Source of the DNA: Fusibacter paucivorans
GTDB lineage: Bacteria; Bacillota; Clostridia; Peptostreptococcales; Acidaminobacteraceae
Length of the DNA: 64,000 nt
Assembly: GCF_018390735.1 (NCBI RefSeq)
Contig: NZ_JAHBCL010000020.1
Coordinates: forward strand, 1 to 64,000
Direction: 5' to 3'
Shown here: one piece after another, positions 9,505 to 25,041 of the stretch
How positions within the stretch are numbered: position 1 is the stretch's first letter
How the letters are laid out: each line of letters starts with the position of its first letter
The notes under the pieces: generated by a model
Databases searched by the model: none
What the model was told of the DNA's origin: nothing
Seen by the model: the letters and a program-made list of their open reading frames with translations, nothing else
Made by a program: the position numbers and the translations under genes

Positions 9505-9740
9505 ATAAATTGCAATGACTGGGACGAGTAAAGCATGCGGAGATACAGAGAGTCGGTGGCTGGTGAAAACCGATGAGACAATTGTTTGAATATCACCCAT
9601 AGCAGTTCAAATGAAATAATGAGTAATTTGAACCGGTTTGATACCGTTATCATTTTTAAGTGGCATGATTCTCATGTAATTTGGGTGGTACCGCGGATTA
9701 TTCGTCCCATGGCTTTTAGCCGTGGGATTTTCTATTTTGT
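9505..9740 (+). ncRNA. Isoleucine-specific T-box leader of ileS
   Basis: The conserved T-box sequence GGGTGGTACCGCGG is at 9683-9696. Before it, a Stem I region holds a TTTGAATATCACC segment in which ATC (9592-9594) is the likely specifier codon, read by tRNA-Ile. After it, GTCCCATGGC (9704-9713) and GCCGTGGGA (9719-9727) form the terminator stem, followed by a T-rich tract. Uncharged tRNA-Ile should stabilise the antiterminator and let ileS be transcribed. The specifier matches the downstream gene, which supports the call. Confidence 0.93.
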
Positions 9741-9855
9741 GGATCAGTAGGGATCGTCACTTTTGCAAAGACAATGCAACATTAAATGCAATGATATCGG
9801 TAAGACAGAGAATAACTCGTGCAAACGAGTAGAAAGATAGGAAGGGATGAAGTTT

Positions 9856-12800
9856 ATGAGTTATAACGAGCTCAAGAAAGGTGCTGTTTCGGAAAACGAA
9901 GCTGAAGTCAGGGCCTATTGGGAGGAAATTGATTTACTGAAGCGCAGTGTGGAAGCGCGTGAGGGCAAAACGCCTTACATCTTTTTTGAGGGCCCTCCGA
10001 CGGCAAATGGTCGTCCGGGTATTCATCATGTTTTAGCGAGAGCGCTTAAAGACGCCGTGTGTCGCTATAAGACGATGCAAGGTTTCCAAGTCAAACGGAA
10101 AGCTGGATGGGATACACATGGTTTACCCGTTGAAATTGAAGTCGAAAAGCGACTAAACCTCAATGACAAAACGGCAATCGAAGCTTACGGTATTGAGAAA
10201 TTCAACACACAGTGCCGAAATTCCGTATTTGAATACGAAGATACATGGCGTGAAATGACAAAGAAGATGGCATATCTCATTGACCTAGATCATCCTTATA
10301 TTACACTGGAGAACGATTATATTGAATCAGTCTGGTGGATTTTAAACAAATTTTTTGAAGAAGGCTATATTTACGAAGGCCATAAAATTTTGCCTTACTG
10401 CCCACGCTGCGGAACAGGACTTGCATCACATGAAGTGGCACAAGGCTATCAAGAAATCAAAACCGTTACTGTTTATGTTAAATTTAAACTCAAGGATGAA
10501 GAGGCTTATTTTCTCGTTTGGACGACGACGCCTTGGACGCTGGCTTCCAATGTTGCATTGACTGTTAATGCGAATGAAACGTATGTCAAAGTACGCAATA
10601 ATGGCGAAGTGTTATATGTTGAAAAAGGCCTTGCGGCAAAAGTGCTGGAAGGCGAATATGAAATACTGGCAGAGATGAAGGGTAAAGACCTTGAATACGT
10701 CGAATACGAACAGTTAATGCCTTTCGTAAAAGCGGATCGCAAAGCGTTTTTCGTTACTTGCGCCGACTATGTTACGGTAGAAGATGGAACGGGGATCGTC
10801 CATACGGCGCCTGCGTTTGGTGAAGATGACTACCAAACCGGCGTGCGTTATAATCTGCCGGTACTTCAGCCCGTAGATGAAGAAGGCAAGTATACGACGA
10901 CACCTTGGGAAGGCACATTTGTCATTGATGCCGACCCTGAAATTGTCAAATGGCTGGCAGAAAACAAGAGCCTGTATAAACGTCAAAAAATGGAGCATAA
11001 CTATCCGCACTGCTGGCGTTGCAAGACACCGCTTCTCTATTATGCAAAACCGAGCTGGTACATTGAAATGACAAAACTGAAAGACCAGCTCATCGCCAAT
11101 AACAACAGCGTTAACTGGTTCCCAGATTTTGTCGGTGAAAAACGTTTTGGCAACTGGCTTGAAAATTTAAATGACTGGGCAATTTCTAGAAGTAGATACT
11201 GGGGAACCCCATTAAATATCTGGCGATGTGAATGTGGGGAACTGACATCTGTTGGATCACGCAAAGCACTTGCTGACCGCGCCATCGAAGAAATTGACGA
11301 GAACATTGAACTGCATCGTCCGTATGTTGATGATATTCATCTCAAATGTGATAAGTGCGGTGGGACGATGACACGTGTACCGGATGTTATTGACTGCTGG
11401 TTTGACAGTGGTTCAATGCCATTTGCGCAGCACCATTATCCATTTGAAAATAAAGATATTTTCGATTCGCTTTACCCTGCGGACTTTATCTGTGAAGGGA
11501 TAGATCAGACGCGTGGATGGTTCTATTCACTCATTGCGATTTCGACGTTCGTCATGGGGATGTCGCCTTATAAAAATGTATTGGTCAATGATTTGATTCT
11601 CGATAAGTACGGCAAGAAAATGTCAAAATCCAAAGGCAATACAGTCGATGCCTTTCAGCTTCTCAATCAATATGGCGCCGATGTTGTGCGTTGGTATCTC
11701 TATTATGTATCGCCTGCGTGGACGCCAACAAAATTTGATGAAGAAGGGCTTATTGAAGTGAATTCAAAGTTCTTTGGTACCCTTAAAAATGTCTATAACT
11801 TCTTTGCACTCTATGCGAACACTGATGGTGTGGACGTTTCGACTTTTGATGTACCAGTGGGTGATCGTCCGGAACTCGACCAGTGGATCATTTCTAAACT
11901 CAATCAATTAATTGCTGGTGTGACAGCGGATATGGATGTCTATGATTCGACAAAAGCCGTTCGAAAAATTCAGGAATTTGTCAGTGAAGATCTTTCGAAT
12001 TGGTACATTAGACGTTCTAGAAGACGTTTCTGGGAATCAGAATTGACACAGGATAAAAAATCTGTCTATCAGACGACTTATGAAGTGCTGACCGCAGTTT
12101 GTCAATTGGCAGCACCATTTGCACCATTTGTTACAGAAGAAATCTACCGAGCCCTCACGGGTGGCGAATCCGTCCACATCAGCTATATGCCAAAAGTCAA
12201 TACGGCGTATATCAGTGAACATATCGAAGCGCGTATGGATCTCATCAGAGACCTCGTAACCCTTGGCCGCGCCGCTCGTGAATCCGTTAAAATTAAAGTG
12301 CGTCAGCCTATCCAACGCGTTATTGTCGATGGTAAGAGCAAATCGCTAATTGAAGATCTCATTCCTTTGATCATGGAAGAACTCAATGTCAAAGAAGTCG
12401 TATTTGCAGATGATTTGCCAACGTATATGGCATTTCAGCTCAAGCCAAACTTTAAAGTGTTGGGGCCGGTGCTCGGCAAGAAAATGGGTGCGTTCTCCAA
12501 AGCGCTTAGTGCTTTGGATCCTCAGGTATATGCAATTGCATTAGAGAACGGTGAAACGGTTAGCCTTGAGCTAGGGGATGAAACTTTTGAAGCAGATAAA
12601 TCACATGTCCTCATCAACATCTCGGCAAAGGAAGGTTTTACTGTCAAGATGGAGAACAACCGCTTTATTATTTTGGACACGCATTTAACAGATGAACTCA
12701 TCAGTGAAGGCTATGCCCGTGAAATGATCTCGAGAATACAGCAGATGCGCAAAGCCAATGATTTTGAAATGATGGCTAATATTCGCATTTATTATGCAAG

Positions 12801-12951
12801 TGATGATGTGTTCAGTGAGGCAGTGGAAGCGCATAAAGCCTATATTATGAGTGAGACACTTGCCGTCAGCGTTGAAGGTTCTGATGCTAAAGAGGCTGAA
12901 GTCTTCAATTTAAATGGCCATGACGTTAAACTCTTTGTTGAACAGGTATAA
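9856..12951 (+). CDS. ileS: Isoleucyl-tRNA synthetase, IleS2-like with GxHH signature
   Basis: This class I synthetase charges tRNA-Ile. Its length (1031 residues) and motif style fit the second, eukaryote-like IleS type. The HIGH position reads GIHH in PPTANGRPGIHHVLAR; the KMSKS loop is intact (KKMSKSKGN). The editing domain (about 190-390) has TTPWTLASNVAL and GTGIVHTAPAFGEDD, and CPRCG and CWRC pairs may bind zinc. Swapping residues 1 and 3 of HxGH to GxHH is known in IleS2 enzymes that are hyper-resistant to mupirocin. GGAAGGG favours the ATG at 9856 over 9847. The Ile T-box controls it. Confidence 0.95.
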   Translation: MSYNELKKGAVSENEAEVRAYWEEIDLLKRSVEAREGKTPYIFFEGPPTANGRPGIHHVLARALKDAVCRYKTMQGFQVKRKAGWDTHGLPVEIEVEKRLNLNDKTAIEAYGIEKFNTQCRNSVFEYEDTWREMTKKMAYLIDLDHPYITLENDYIESVWWILNKFFEEGYIYEGHKILPYCPRCGTGLASHEVAQGYQEIKTVTVYVKFKLKDEEAYFLVWTTTPWTLASNVALTVNANETYVKVRNNGEVLYVEKGLAAKVLEGEYEILAEMKGKDLEYVEYEQLMPFVKADRKAFFVTCADYVTVEDGTGIVHTAPAFGEDDYQTGVRYNLPVLQPVDEEGKYTTTPWEGTFVIDADPEIVKWLAENKSLYKRQKMEHNYPHCWRCKTPLLYYAKPSWYIEMTKLKDQLIANNNSVNWFPDFVGEKRFGNWLENLNDWAISRSRYWGTPLNIWRCECGELTSVGSRKALADRAIEEIDENIELHRPYVDDIHLKCDKCGGTMTRVPDVIDCWFDSGSMPFAQHHYPFENKDIFDSLYPADFICEGIDQTRGWFYSLIAISTFVMGMSPYKNVLVNDLILDKYGKKMSKSKGNTVDAFQLLNQYGADVVRWYLYYVSPAWTPTKFDEEGLIEVNSKFFGTLKNVYNFFALYANTDGVDVSTFDVPVGDRPELDQWIISKLNQLIAGVTADMDVYDSTKAVRKIQEFVSEDLSNWYIRRSRRRFWESELTQDKKSVYQTTYEVLTAVCQLAAPFAPFVTEEIYRALTGGESVHISYMPKVNTAYISEHIEARMDLIRDLVTLGRAARESVKIKVRQPIQRVIVDGKSKSLIEDLIPLIMEELNVKEVVFADDLPTYMAFQLKPNFKVLGPVLGKKMGAFSKALSALDPQVYAIALENGETVSLELGDETFEADKSHVLINISAKEGFTVKMENNRFIILDTHLTDELISEGYAREMISRIQQMRKANDFEMMANIRIYYASDDVFSEAVEAHKAYIMSETLAVSVEGSDAKEAEVFNLNGHDVKLFVEQV

Positions 12952-13064: not shown

Positions 13065-14573
13065 CTAAGTTAAACCGTACTGTTTTGCTTTTCGGGCAAT
13101 GGTCGATTGGTTGCTGCCAAGTGCAACGGCAGCATTATAAGTTGTCTTATGCTTTTTTAAGGCAGCTTCTATTAAATGTTTTTCATATGAAGCAACGGCT
13201 TCTTTGAGCGGCAGCTTACTGTCATCAGCCGTATTGTCGGCATAGATGAGATCGCCTTCAATTTCTGCTTGGGGTTGTGTGACATATTTCACTTGTGTAT
13301 GGTTAATACAGTTTTTCTCACCGATGATGACAAGCCTTTCAATTGCGTTTTTAAGCTCCCTGATATTGCCGGGCCAATCATGCTGTTCGAGTAAGAAGAG
13401 TGCACGGTCATTTAAGAATTTTTCTTTATTATATTTTGCATTAAACTCTTCCAAAAACTTTTGACAAAGCAATTTTATATCGTCTTGCCGTTCACGGAGT
13501 GGTGGGATTTTAATTGGAATAACATTGAGCCGGTAATACAAATCTTGTCTAAAGCCGCCTGTCTTAATAAGGCTGAATAGATTTTCATTTGTTGCAGAAA
13601 TAATGCGAACATCAATGGGAATCTTTTTTAAACCGCCAACGCGCATCAGTTCGTTTTCTTGGATAACCCGCAGTAGTTTTGGCTGAAGATTTAATGGCAT
13701 TGATCCAATTTCATCAAGCAGGATCGTGCCGCCGTTAGCAAGTTCCATTAAACCCACTTTTGACTTAATCGCACCGGTAAAAGCGCCTTTTTCATAACCA
13801 AATAGCTCGGATTCAATGAGATGATCAGGAATGGCGGCGCAGTTGACCGTAATGAAAGGTTTGTCTTTACGTTCACTTTGTTCGCAGATCTCTTTTGCGA
13901 GGACTTCCTTTCCGACGCCGCTTTCACCGAGAATCAAAACGGCAGCATCAGTCTTTGCAACCATTGGAAGCATTTCTTTGATATCTGTTATTTTCTTGGA
14001 TTGACCAATAAATGAAGAGGTTGTGAACTTATCCACATAATAGGCCAGCTTCTTGGCGAGCAATCGATTTTTTTCTATTTCAACATCGAGGCGTTCTTTC
14101 CAATCAGACATTTTGGCCAGATCCTGTACCACAGTCATAACGTACTGAATGTCACCATTTGTATCAAAAATTGGTGAACTTGTAACGATGAGTTTGCTGT
14201 GATCGGGTGCATCCGTTACCATTGAAACTTTTTTACGTTCCTTAATCGCACTGATGGCAGTTGATTCCGACAAGGACTTGTCAAGATGATTGTACTTGCA
14301 TTTAGGTGTATTGTTATCATCGAACATATTAGCGGGATCGGCTATTGCCATGAAGTAATTAAGCTGATCTTTCATAAGTTCTTCAATCGGCTTAAGATGG
14401 GCATTCTCGCGGGTTACTTTGTAAGTGTTGCTCCAAGCCTTATTGACGAATAGTACTTGTCCATCCTTGTTTATAATATGAATGGGCATGGCAACGAGGT
14501 CCAAAACATCAAATGCATCTATGGCAGGGATTGTCTGCAACCCAAAAATGGGTTGTGCTATTTTTGTGGTCAT
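13065..14573 (-). CDS. PAS-containing sigma-54-dependent transcriptional activator
   Basis: From the preferred ATG the protein has 502 residues: an N-terminal PAS domain (about 15-140, MPIHIINKDGQVLFVNKAWS), an AAA+ domain (about 185-420) with Walker A GESGVGKE, the sigma-54 contact loop GAFTGA, Walker B ILLDEIG and the arginine-finger region, and a C-terminal Fis/TyrR-like helix-turn-helix (YNAAVALGSNQSTIARKAKQ). No receiver domain is present, so a ligand or redox cue sensed by PAS is likely. It diverges from a consensus -24/-12 promoter for the catabolic operon. The frame opens at 14609; an AAAGG near 14587 and family length favour 14573, though the spacing is long. Confidence 0.93.
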   Translation of the reverse strand: MTTKIAQPIFGLQTIPAIDAFDVLDLVAMPIHIINKDGQVLFVNKAWSNTYKVTRENAHLKPIEELMKDQLNYFMAIADPANMFDDNNTPKCKYNHLDKSLSESTAISAIKERKKVSMVTDAPDHSKLIVTSSPIFDTNGDIQYVMTVVQDLAKMSDWKERLDVEIEKNRLLAKKLAYYVDKFTTSSFIGQSKKITDIKEMLPMVAKTDAAVLILGESGVGKEVLAKEICEQSERKDKPFITVNCAAIPDHLIESELFGYEKGAFTGAIKSKVGLMELANGGTILLDEIGSMPLNLQPKLLRVIQENELMRVGGLKKIPIDVRIISATNENLFSLIKTGGFRQDLYYRLNVIPIKIPPLRERQDDIKLLCQKFLEEFNAKYNKEKFLNDRALFLLEQHDWPGNIRELKNAIERLVIIGEKNCINHTQVKYVTQPQAEIEGDLIYADNTADDSKLPLKEAVASYEKHLIEAALKKHKTTYNAAVALGSNQSTIARKAKQYGLT

Positions 14574-14667
14574 ATTTGTACACATCCTTTCATCATAATC
14601 ATACCACATATTCCACGAGATAACGATAGTTTAATTTAAAAATGGGTTCGCAACTCAATAATGGGTT
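14538..14667. promoter_or_regulatory. Candidate enhancer (UAS) for the sigma-54 activator
   Basis: The octamer AATGGGTT occurs at 14547-14554, 14641-14648 and 14660-14667. The first copy is part of a perfect dyad, CAACCCAAAAATGGGTTG (14538-14555), inside the start of the activator gene. The copies lie 160-290 bp ahead of the -24 element, the usual distance for enhancer sites of sigma-54 activators. Binding by the adjacent activator is inferred. Confidence 0.5.
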
Positions 14668-14828
14668 AAAAAAGGCATCTTTTTCTTATGGATGATATTC
14701 TAACGGTCGAAATCGCATGTGTCGCTGAGATTTTTCGAAAAAAAAATATGCCTTGAAACTATTGAAATTACAAGATTTCAAAAAACATTGTCAAAAAATT
14801 ATCTTTTTTTTGCGAAATGTTTAACATT

Positions 14829-14844
14829 TGGCACACTCTTTGCA
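14829..14844 (+). promoter_or_regulatory. Sigma-54 promoter of the catabolic operon
   Basis: TGGCAC-N5-TTGCA (14829-14834 and 14840-14844) matches the -24/-12 consensus with GG and GC at the required spacing. The start of transcription should fall near 14855, about 30 bases before the first ATG. An activator of the right class is divergently encoded. Confidence 0.9.
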
Positions 14845-23270: not shown

Positions 23271-23600
23271 TTAGTGAAAGGCAATGATTTGATCGACAAA
23301 GATAGAAAGTTCTTCAAAGAGAAGGTTATACTTGACGTTGTTGGGATTATCTGTGTAGCTGAGATTAACTTGATAAACATTTTTACATTTGAGTACGGTA
23401 GGTGCGTCATCGGGTACCAGAATTTCTGAAGCAATGTATTTTGATGATGCGAACCAATTGTCAGAAACGATTTCAATGTTTTCTCTCAATAGTACGAGCC
23501 AGCCCATTCCGGCAACAAATAGTTCAATAGATGGCAGATCAGAATTGATAAAATGCTGTCGTAAGATTTGGGCTTTACTTGTTTGGAATTCCATGGACAT
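23271..23600 (-). CDS. Hypothetical protein, 109 residues
   Basis: I do not recognise this protein. A strong AAGGAGG seven bases before the ATG and a terminator directly behind it argue that it is a real single gene. The sequence is soluble-looking, with mixed strands and helices (SIELFVAGMGWLVLLRENIEIV; SYTDNPNNVKYNLLFEELSIFVDQ), no signal peptide and no metal motif. The 5' end faces the sigma-54 promoter at 23717 across about 115 bp, so the two divergent units could share control. Confidence 0.7.
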   Translation of the reverse strand: MSMEFQTSKAQILRQHFINSDLPSIELFVAGMGWLVLLRENIEIVSDNWFASSKYIASEILVPDDAPTVLKCKNVYQVNLSYTDNPNNVKYNLLFEELSIFVDQIIAFH

Positions 23601-23664: not shown

Positions 23665-23716
23665 AGCAAATAAAAAATGATTTGTAGTTGCATTATTTTA
23701 TTTCAAAATTACATTT

Positions 23717-23732
23717 TGGCATAAGACTTGCA
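23717..23732 (+). promoter_or_regulatory. Second sigma-54 promoter
   Basis: TGGCAT-N5-TTGCA (23717-23722, 23728-23732) fits the -24/-12 consensus with the invariant GG and GC. Transcription should start near 23743. The first recognisable gene downstream is the MaoC hydratase almost 690 bases later. Confidence 0.75.
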
Positions 23733-23741
23733 ATATATAAT

Positions 23742-24420
23742 GGTGAATAACCGATTTTGGGTATTCATATGGTTCAAGATGATCGAAGACACATCTGAAG
23801 TTACGGTAAGGGATTTCGTAACAACCATCATGGGAAATGCTGAAGTCATTGATTTTAAAGGGCTTTAGAGATTGTTTTAGAGGGAGCGATCGCTAAAGAC
23901 ATAAATCACAGAGATAAAAATTCAATGACTGAATAGTATAATACCATCTTCAATCGTCCAGAGTTTGTACAGATGGATTGTCTAGCTGTAAACCATAGTG
24001 GACACTGTGACATATATCGTTCGTAAAGATGCAAACACACGAGCCTTTACACGCTATAGAGCATGCCGTGTGATAAAGCAGTATGTCACTGCCAGGGAAC
24101 GACGCCATCGAATAAGGATTGTGAGGGCGAAATGACCTGGTGCTGTAGCTAAGTAATATTGCAGTAATTGCAATGCCTTAGACAGAGAAACCTACCTTTT
24201 GGAGAGCGTTGGTTACAGGCAGCGTGGACTTGCAAAAGTACCTGATATTTTAAGGTGCTCAGCGTCGCCATGCATGCCGAATTGTGATAAAAACGCCTTG
24301 TAACATCCAGTGGATGGTAAAAAAACAGCACCGGTTTGGTCTTCAATCATCGCTAATTAAAAAGCACCCGTAAACAATTGTTTACAGATATGAGGTGCTG
24401 TAAACTTCAATTTACACTAG
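23742..24420 (+). ncRNA. Candidate structured non-coding RNA or very long leader
   Basis: About 680 bases without a usable reading frame follow the sigma-54 promoter. The predicted 5' end opens with a hairpin, TGAATAACC-GATTTT-GGGTATTCA. Further perfect or near-perfect pairings: GTTACG/CGTAAC (23800-23823), CCATCT/AGATGG, CATAGT/ACTGTG, GTGACATA (24006)/TATGTCAC (24082), CACACG/CGTGTG, GCAGT/ACTGC (24078-24092), ATTGCA/TGCAAT within CTAAG/CTTAG (about 24149-24181), a 10-bp long-range pairing CTGGTGCTGT (24137)/ACAGCACCGG (24325), and AGCACC/GGTGCT around GTAAACAATTGTTTAC just before the maoC ribosome binding site. Six-base pairings are expected by chance at this length; the longer ones are less so. 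It matches no RNA family I can name. Confidence 0.4.
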
Positions 24421-24429
24421 GAGGCCAAC

Positions 24430-24852
24430 ATGATTGGGAAAAGCATTGATGAATTAAAAGTAGGCGATAAGGCATCTTTTACAAAGACAATTACTGAGAC
24501 CGATGTCTACCTTTATGCAGGTATCAGCGGTGACTTAAATCCGGCGCATATTAACCAAGTAGAATCAGAAAAGACAATGTTCAAAGGCAGAATTGCACAT
24601 GGTATGTTGACAGCTAGCTTTATTTCGACGGTACTTGGATGTTACTTACCAGGCCCTGGCACAATTTATCTTGGTCAAACATTAAAATTTAAAAAACCAG
24701 TTCGTTTTGGCGATACGATTACAGCAGTTGCTGAAGTGATATCTGCTGATCAAGAGAAAAACAGAGTTATCTTAAAAACAACTTGCTATAATCAAAATGA
24801 TGAAGTTGTCATTGAAGGCGAAGCAACCGCGATGCCTCCAAAAAAAGCTTAA
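24430..24852 (+). CDS. MaoC-like enoyl-CoA hydratase (R-specific, PhaJ type)
   Basis: The hot-dog fold hydratase motif is clear: YAGISGDLNPAHIN supplies the catalytic Asp and His, followed by RIAHGMLTASFIS. The 140-residue size equals that of PhaJ-type single-domain enzymes, which hydrate trans-2-enoyl-CoA to (R)-3-hydroxyacyl-CoA. AGGAGG lies directly before the ATG and just after the stem-loop that ends the long leader. Sigma-54 control from 23717 would link it to the BKACE operon, which also handles CoA esters; this link is inferred. Confidence 0.88.
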   Translation: MIGKSIDELKVGDKASFTKTITETDVYLYAGISGDLNPAHINQVESEKTMFKGRIAHGMLTASFISTVLGCYLPGPGTIYLGQTLKFKKPVRFGDTITAVAEVISADQEKNRVILKTTCYNQNDEVVIEGEATAMPPKKA

Positions 24853-24880
24853 TAGGGATTAAGTTCGATTTGATTTAGTC

Positions 24881-24910
24881 GGCAGATGAGAGGGCACATA
24901 GGGATCTGCC
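24881..24910 (+). other. Hairpin downstream of maoC
   Basis: GGCAGAT (24881-24887) and ATCTGCC (24904-24910) pair perfectly around 16 bases. There is no T run, so this is not the terminator, which follows 30 bases later. Confidence 0.4.
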
Positions 24911-24942
24911 AATCAGTACACCAAAACTTTAATTTCAATATA

Positions 24943-25003
24943 CAAAGTGGATTGCTTTAAGCATATAGAAAGGACAGCATAGAGCTGTCCACTTTGTTTT
25001 TTT
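24943..25003 (+). terminator. Two-tier terminator after maoC
   Basis: CAAAGTGG (24943-24950) and CCACTTTG (24989-24996) form a lower stem around an inner hairpin, GGACAGC-ATAGA-GCTGTCC (24972-24990), whose last bases compete with the lower stem. Seven T follow at 24997-25003. Confidence 0.8.
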
Positions 25004-25041
25004 GACCTAATAATTTAAATGGCTGATAGAATGATTTGATA

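Follow-up and report, generated by a model that had tools for sequence, protein, structure and literature searches.

The 64,000-nt stretch of Fusibacter paucivorans DNA analyzed here (contig NZ_JAHBCL010000020.1, positions 1 to 64,000; hereafter the window) contains a sigma-54 promoter followed by ~690 nt without a usable reading frame, which extend from the expected transcription start near 23743 up to the beginning of maoC at 24430. Folding models of this span (23743–24429) in the window and in one congener indicate that its RNA fold is held by selection. We consider it somewhat probable that the promoter yields a single transcript, in which a tightly folded non-coding leader of ~690 nt would run into maoC, act in cis, and probably derive from a decayed fabG, the gene that fills this slot in the sigma-54-fabG-maoC operon of relatives. 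A closing helix (23778–23793/24337–24351) would bound a multibranched domain, with a compound stem and a five-pair helix at the Shine-Dalgarno sequence on its 3′ side. Such a leader would most likely set how well the maoC mRNA is translated or how stable it is, adding to the control exerted by a sigma-54 activator. If this is correct, the leader would be a large structured RNA that is new and has no name yet, combining an unusual type of promoter with a traceable birth.

Conservation of the predicted fold

For the window, the minimum free energy (MFE) of the span has a z score of -4.7 to -4.9, and for the congener one of -3.5, compared with a mean near zero for random genomic segments and -0.1 to -1.6 for the fabG genes of relatives. 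The consensus fold of both sequences reaches z -9.3 against column shuffles. When the two sequences were folded independently, 151 pairs coincided out of 215 and 207, whereas a null that reassigned these substitutions to other sites carrying the identical base within the same 40-nt block gave 37 ± 15 (maximum 84 in 200 trials). The congener folds at -200 kcal/mol, against -174.5 ± 6.5 kcal/mol for simulated relatives, and its substitutions break 24 pairs of the window structure where 45.6 ± 3.8 were expected; on the antisense strand, used as a control, the effect is much weaker (34 versus 42.5 expected). Double changes that keep a pair are in excess in one direction (10 versus 3.3 expected, p 0.001), the compensatory pairs lying in the start hairpin, in the arm 23830–23947, and in a stem at 24214–24217/24283–24286. 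All these predictions disregard pseudoknots and tertiary contacts. The span thus has, as far as two sequences can tell, the large conserved multibranched secondary structure that characterizes large ornate RNAs, and the single-sequence, consensus, and shared-pair values bear out the view of an initial annotation of this DNA, made from the letters alone, that chance hardly explains the layout. One leader-maoC pairing suggested by a full-length fold was not used, being mismatched in the congener.

The element is carried by a single congener (locus L003/L004), with 82% identity over 830 bp and invariant runs of 68, 48, 40, and 36 nt, while four-fold coding sites of 20 genes common to both genomes are only 51% identical. 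Other intergenic regions of the genome pair are about 53 to 93% identical over window length, none of them being as long as the leader.

Several observations weigh against a selected fold in a leader RNA. Pair-keeping double changes counted in the other direction are not significant (5 versus 3.2 expected), the antisense strand, too, folds more stably than its shuffles (z -3.3), and folding together with maoC and its 3′ untranslated region (UTR) keeps 136 of the 215 leader pairs. Several other intergenic regions of the species pair are 80–92% identical, and we therefore do not regard conservation alone as decisive and dropped it as proof; at least one of these controls is probably an unlisted small gene. 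Finally, the evidence comes from two sequences of one genus, which do not suffice for a formal test of covariation.

The initial annotation was also right that no usable frame precedes the MaoC gene: the open reading frames (ORFs) are short, and the longer ones are interrupted by stops in the congener. It is very improbable that the span is a hidden protein gene expressed through frameshifts, recoding, or small ORFs. Short ORFs do exist, and one of 46 aa on the + strand is open in both species, but its substitutions are spread evenly over the codon positions (6, 9, 6), most other frames are broken in the congener by stops or by indels that shift the frame, and no ORF of the span is both open in the two species and biased toward third-position changes.

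Outside the genus, no homolog was found in a search of 41 family genomes and of several hundred genomes each from the order, class, and phylum (samples that partly overlap), whose sequence-dependent first step could miss a strongly diverged version. A 24-nt exact match in another class and short matches in the family were rejected, as those inspected lie in, or resemble, protein genes. The Rfam 15 scan, likewise proposed in the initial annotation, returned no family at the gathering cut-off, including OLE, ROOL, GOLLD, and raiA; at E<=5, positions 23700–24450 gave only a chance miRNA match (E 2.2). Elsewhere in the window, Rfam matches a group II intron at the very edge (43–119, +, 47.6 bits). 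Neither blastn against phages and plasmids nor three exact-pattern scans of viral contigs found anything. The maoC loci of Clostridium and others have mostly short leaders and no convincing match to model R1 (Table 1), some of them with a sigma-54-like site 50–90 nt upstream.

Promoter, anatomy of the leader, and maoC

The sequence TTGGCATAAGACTTGCA is an exact match to the sigma-54 consensus, with the -24 GG and -12 GC elements at the correct spacing, as the initial annotation had stated. A strict pattern, TTGGCAYNNNNNTTGCW, matches the genome 44 times and its reversed control once, which makes a chance match unlikely. This count, together with ~48 strong genomic matches to the sigma-54 activator domain (none assigned to the maoC promoter), makes the promoter credible; its -24/-12 motifs are kept in the congener. 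The transcription start near 23743 is predicted from the promoter alone.

Table 1 Features of the sigma-54-maoC region of the window
Feature	Position	Strand	Support or remark
Sigma-54 promoter TTGGCATAAGACTTGCA	23716–23732	+	Exact consensus; genome 44 vs 1; motifs kept in congener
Predicted non-coding structured leader RNA, promoter to maoC; fabG slot in relatives	23743–24429	+	No conserved ORF; fold z -4.9; 151 shared MFE pairs vs 37; synteny
Start hairpin	23743–23768	+	9 pairs shared with congener; A-U replaced by G-C in one (compensatory)
5′ arm (TGGTT/GGCCA) pairing with 24423–24427	23770–23774	+	In both independent MFE folds; invariant
5′ arm of 14-bp closing helix; also place of fabG start region	23778–23793	+	Paired bases invariant
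Hairpin GTTACGG/TCGTAAC	23800–23822	+	Invariant
Long branched arm	23830–23947	+	3 pairs with both bases replaced yet still paired; one-sided changes as well
Arm closed by GTGACATAT/TATGTCAC, inner CACACG/CGTGTG	24007–24089	+	Closing stem kept through G-U changes
Nearly invariant core: hairpins CCAGG/CCTGG (inner CGCC/GGCG) and CTAAG/CTTAG (ATTGCA/TGCAAT)	24091–24181	+	68-nt invariant run from 24098; within model R1
ACAGCACCGG, long-range partner of 24137–24146; alternative partner GGTGCTGT at 24394–24401	24325–24334	+	Sequence matches; alternative state putative
3′ arm of closing helix	24337–24351	+	Lies in a run of 48 invariant nt that starts at 24321
Compound stem and small hairpin before ribosome-binding site; resembles fabG 3′ end (CTGTAAAC...TTTAC...TAGGAGG)	24363–24415	+	Conserved fold
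maoC (MaoC-like CoA-ester hydratase, 140 aa)	24430–24852	+	PF01575 4.8e-22; protein 100% identical in congener
maoC 3′ UTR ending in compound terminator	24853–25005	+	94% identical in congener; hairpin plus compound terminator with T run

Most of the structural elements described in the initial annotation were recovered. The hairpin at the expected start is present and, in the congener, loses one pair next to the one swapped from A-U to G-C. The stem given there as 8 bp (24006/24082) also exists and is kept through G-U changes, its true extent being 24007–24015/24081–24089. The 10-bp pairing corresponds to 24137–24146/24325–24334 and is invariant in the congener, and both parts of the compound stem before the ribosome-binding site (24363–24399 and 24400–24415) are conserved. 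Overlooked in that first reading was the 14-bp closing helix, which encloses a domain of ~575 nt.

About half of the 24137–24146/24325–24334 pairing competes with the local CCAGG/CCTGG stem. In addition, GGTGCTGT occurs twice (24139 and 24394) and ACAGCACC once (24325), so two mutually exclusive pairings are possible; judged from the letters, we treat them as a lead only and not as evidence for a switch. In the modelled fold, the five pairs between 23770–23774 and 24423–24427 would mask the last part of the maoC Shine-Dalgarno sequence as well as the spacer. Invariant GCATGC palindromes lie at 24061 and 24272, and the 3′ UTR of maoC possibly belongs to the same RNA architecture.

Several sigma-54-related features lie nearby or elsewhere in the genome. 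Divergent from the maoC promoter is a 109-aa ORF (23271–23600, −), 86% identical in the congener and with no Pfam match. A second exact sigma-54 promoter of the window (14828–14844, +) precedes a flavin reductase / DUF6282 / cupin / TRAP-type transporter / BKACE cluster, from which a gene for a PAS-type sigma-54 activator (13065–14609, −) diverges. The identical 17-nt site at G000:C77:72082–72098 drives a gene pair without a long non-coding leader, which looks like the LeuC/LeuD (aconitase) family.

The fabG slot and the origin of the RNA

In six genomes of the family (L089, L091, L092, L095, L096, and L097), a sigma-54 promoter located 785–805 nt before maoC drives fabG-maoC, with a FabG-type reductase of ~240 aa encoded in between. 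The 713 nt between the sigma-54 site and maoC in the window are non-coding and occupy exactly this fabG slot. A nucleotide profile built from nine fabG genes and aligned colinearly scored z 2.8 in the window and 3.9 in the congener; of 300 shuffles, 2 and 1, respectively, scored as high. Only 1 of 300 (window) and 0 of 300 (congener) random genomic segments did as well, and codon-permuted fabG profiles gave the same two counts. An intact fabG lies at another place in both genomes, behind what looks, from its sequence, like a CoA-transferase gene. Because of the family synteny, the profile signal, and the intact fabG elsewhere, the RNA probably descends from fabG or at least replaced it, and descent proper is fairly likely. 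That fabG lost its frame within the sigma-54 operon and became, at the same site, a large structured RNA that now controls or works beside maoC is a plausible scenario that falls a little short of probable. Such a change from bacterial gene to large structured RNA would be rare.

Against descent, the fabG signal is weak (near 1 in 300) and, for the window, disappears when only the fabG copies present in the same genome are used. A frameshift-aware protein alignment to FabG gives no significant score in the window, where 30 of 60 shuffles do as well, and a marginal one in the congener (3 of 60). With similarity this weak and no single segment decisive, the gene may instead have been deleted or relocated, an unrelated structured RNA having arisen in or entered the slot. 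We find this somewhat unlikely, as the colinear signal exceeds that of shuffled sequence, permuted profiles, and random genomic segments, is spread along the span, and survives the omission of either the 5′ or the 3′ end, being weakest without the 5′ end.

The initial annotation had held that a decayed protein gene in this span would speak against a structured RNA. The slot and the weak colinear signal do point in part to such a gene, but since the fold is under selection though the frame is gone, the signal points to an origin and not against a function. A functionless, decaying fabG pseudogene with incidental hairpins, which the exact slot, the colinear similarity, and the intact copy elsewhere would suit, is accordingly improbable: the span has not drifted without constraint after the loss of the frame. 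Its long invariant runs contrast with the divergence at four-fold sites, the fold is kept far beyond the null in both shared and broken pairs, and it is much stronger than in the fabG genes of relatives.

In a second lineage (genome G061, locus L088), a sigma-54 site is followed by ~300 nt, apparently non-coding and without strong structure, before maoC. This is possibly an independent loss of fabG.

Role of the leader and comparison with known systems

A cis-acting maoC leader is the most likely and most economical role. No terminator-like site was found on the + strand between the leader and maoC, whereas one follows maoC, and a leader therefore fits better than a free-standing RNA. The initial annotation had proposed a sigma-54-controlled large structured RNA or a long sensory leader; conservation of the fold gives good support to the structured RNA or long leader, while the sensory part is without evidence. 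It is also conceivable, if unlikely, that the RNA works in trans, either as a molecule of its own or as an RNA particle, in the manner of OLE, ROOL, or GOLLD, with maoC merely downstream. The size, the closing helix, and the multibranched architecture would agree with this, and the invariant GCATGC palindromes could permit RNA-RNA contacts. The missing terminator of its own, the very narrow distribution (one genus), and the lack of an Rfam match argue against it.

Searches of a literature library found no described counterpart. Like OLE, ROOL, and GOLLD (PMC12286853), the RNA is several hundred nt long and has a closing helix, many branches, and nearly invariant blocks; unlike them, it matches no covariance model, lies directly upstream of a gene, has no terminator of its own, and has turned up in a single genus. 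With riboswitches and structured 5′ leaders such as the T-box, it shares the position between promoter and ribosome-binding site, conserved hairpins, and possible alternative pairings near that site. However, it is far larger, belongs to no known family, and has no terminator or clear switch. The window itself holds a T-box leader (9506–9712, +; RF00230, 137.9 bits), followed by an aminoacyl-tRNA synthetase gene (9847–12951) that looks like ileS.

Sigma-54 promoters over maoC-containing operons are known from the butyrate metabolism of Clostridiales, with the consensus TTGGCATNNNNNTTGCT for butyrate-type regulons (PMC6615313). A term search of that paper returned neither fabG nor a leader RNA, whereas the transcript proposed here would start non-coding. 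A further parallel is the sigma-54-fabG-maoC operon of the six family genomes, with the same promoter type and downstream gene and a similar spacing, in which fabG is intact where F. paucivorans has the structured non-coding RNA. As promoter and downstream gene are those of an operon with a protein gene at the place of the RNA, the pair would allow study of how a coding sequence becomes a folded RNA, and of what use such an RNA is to a sigma-54-controlled CoA-ester hydratase.
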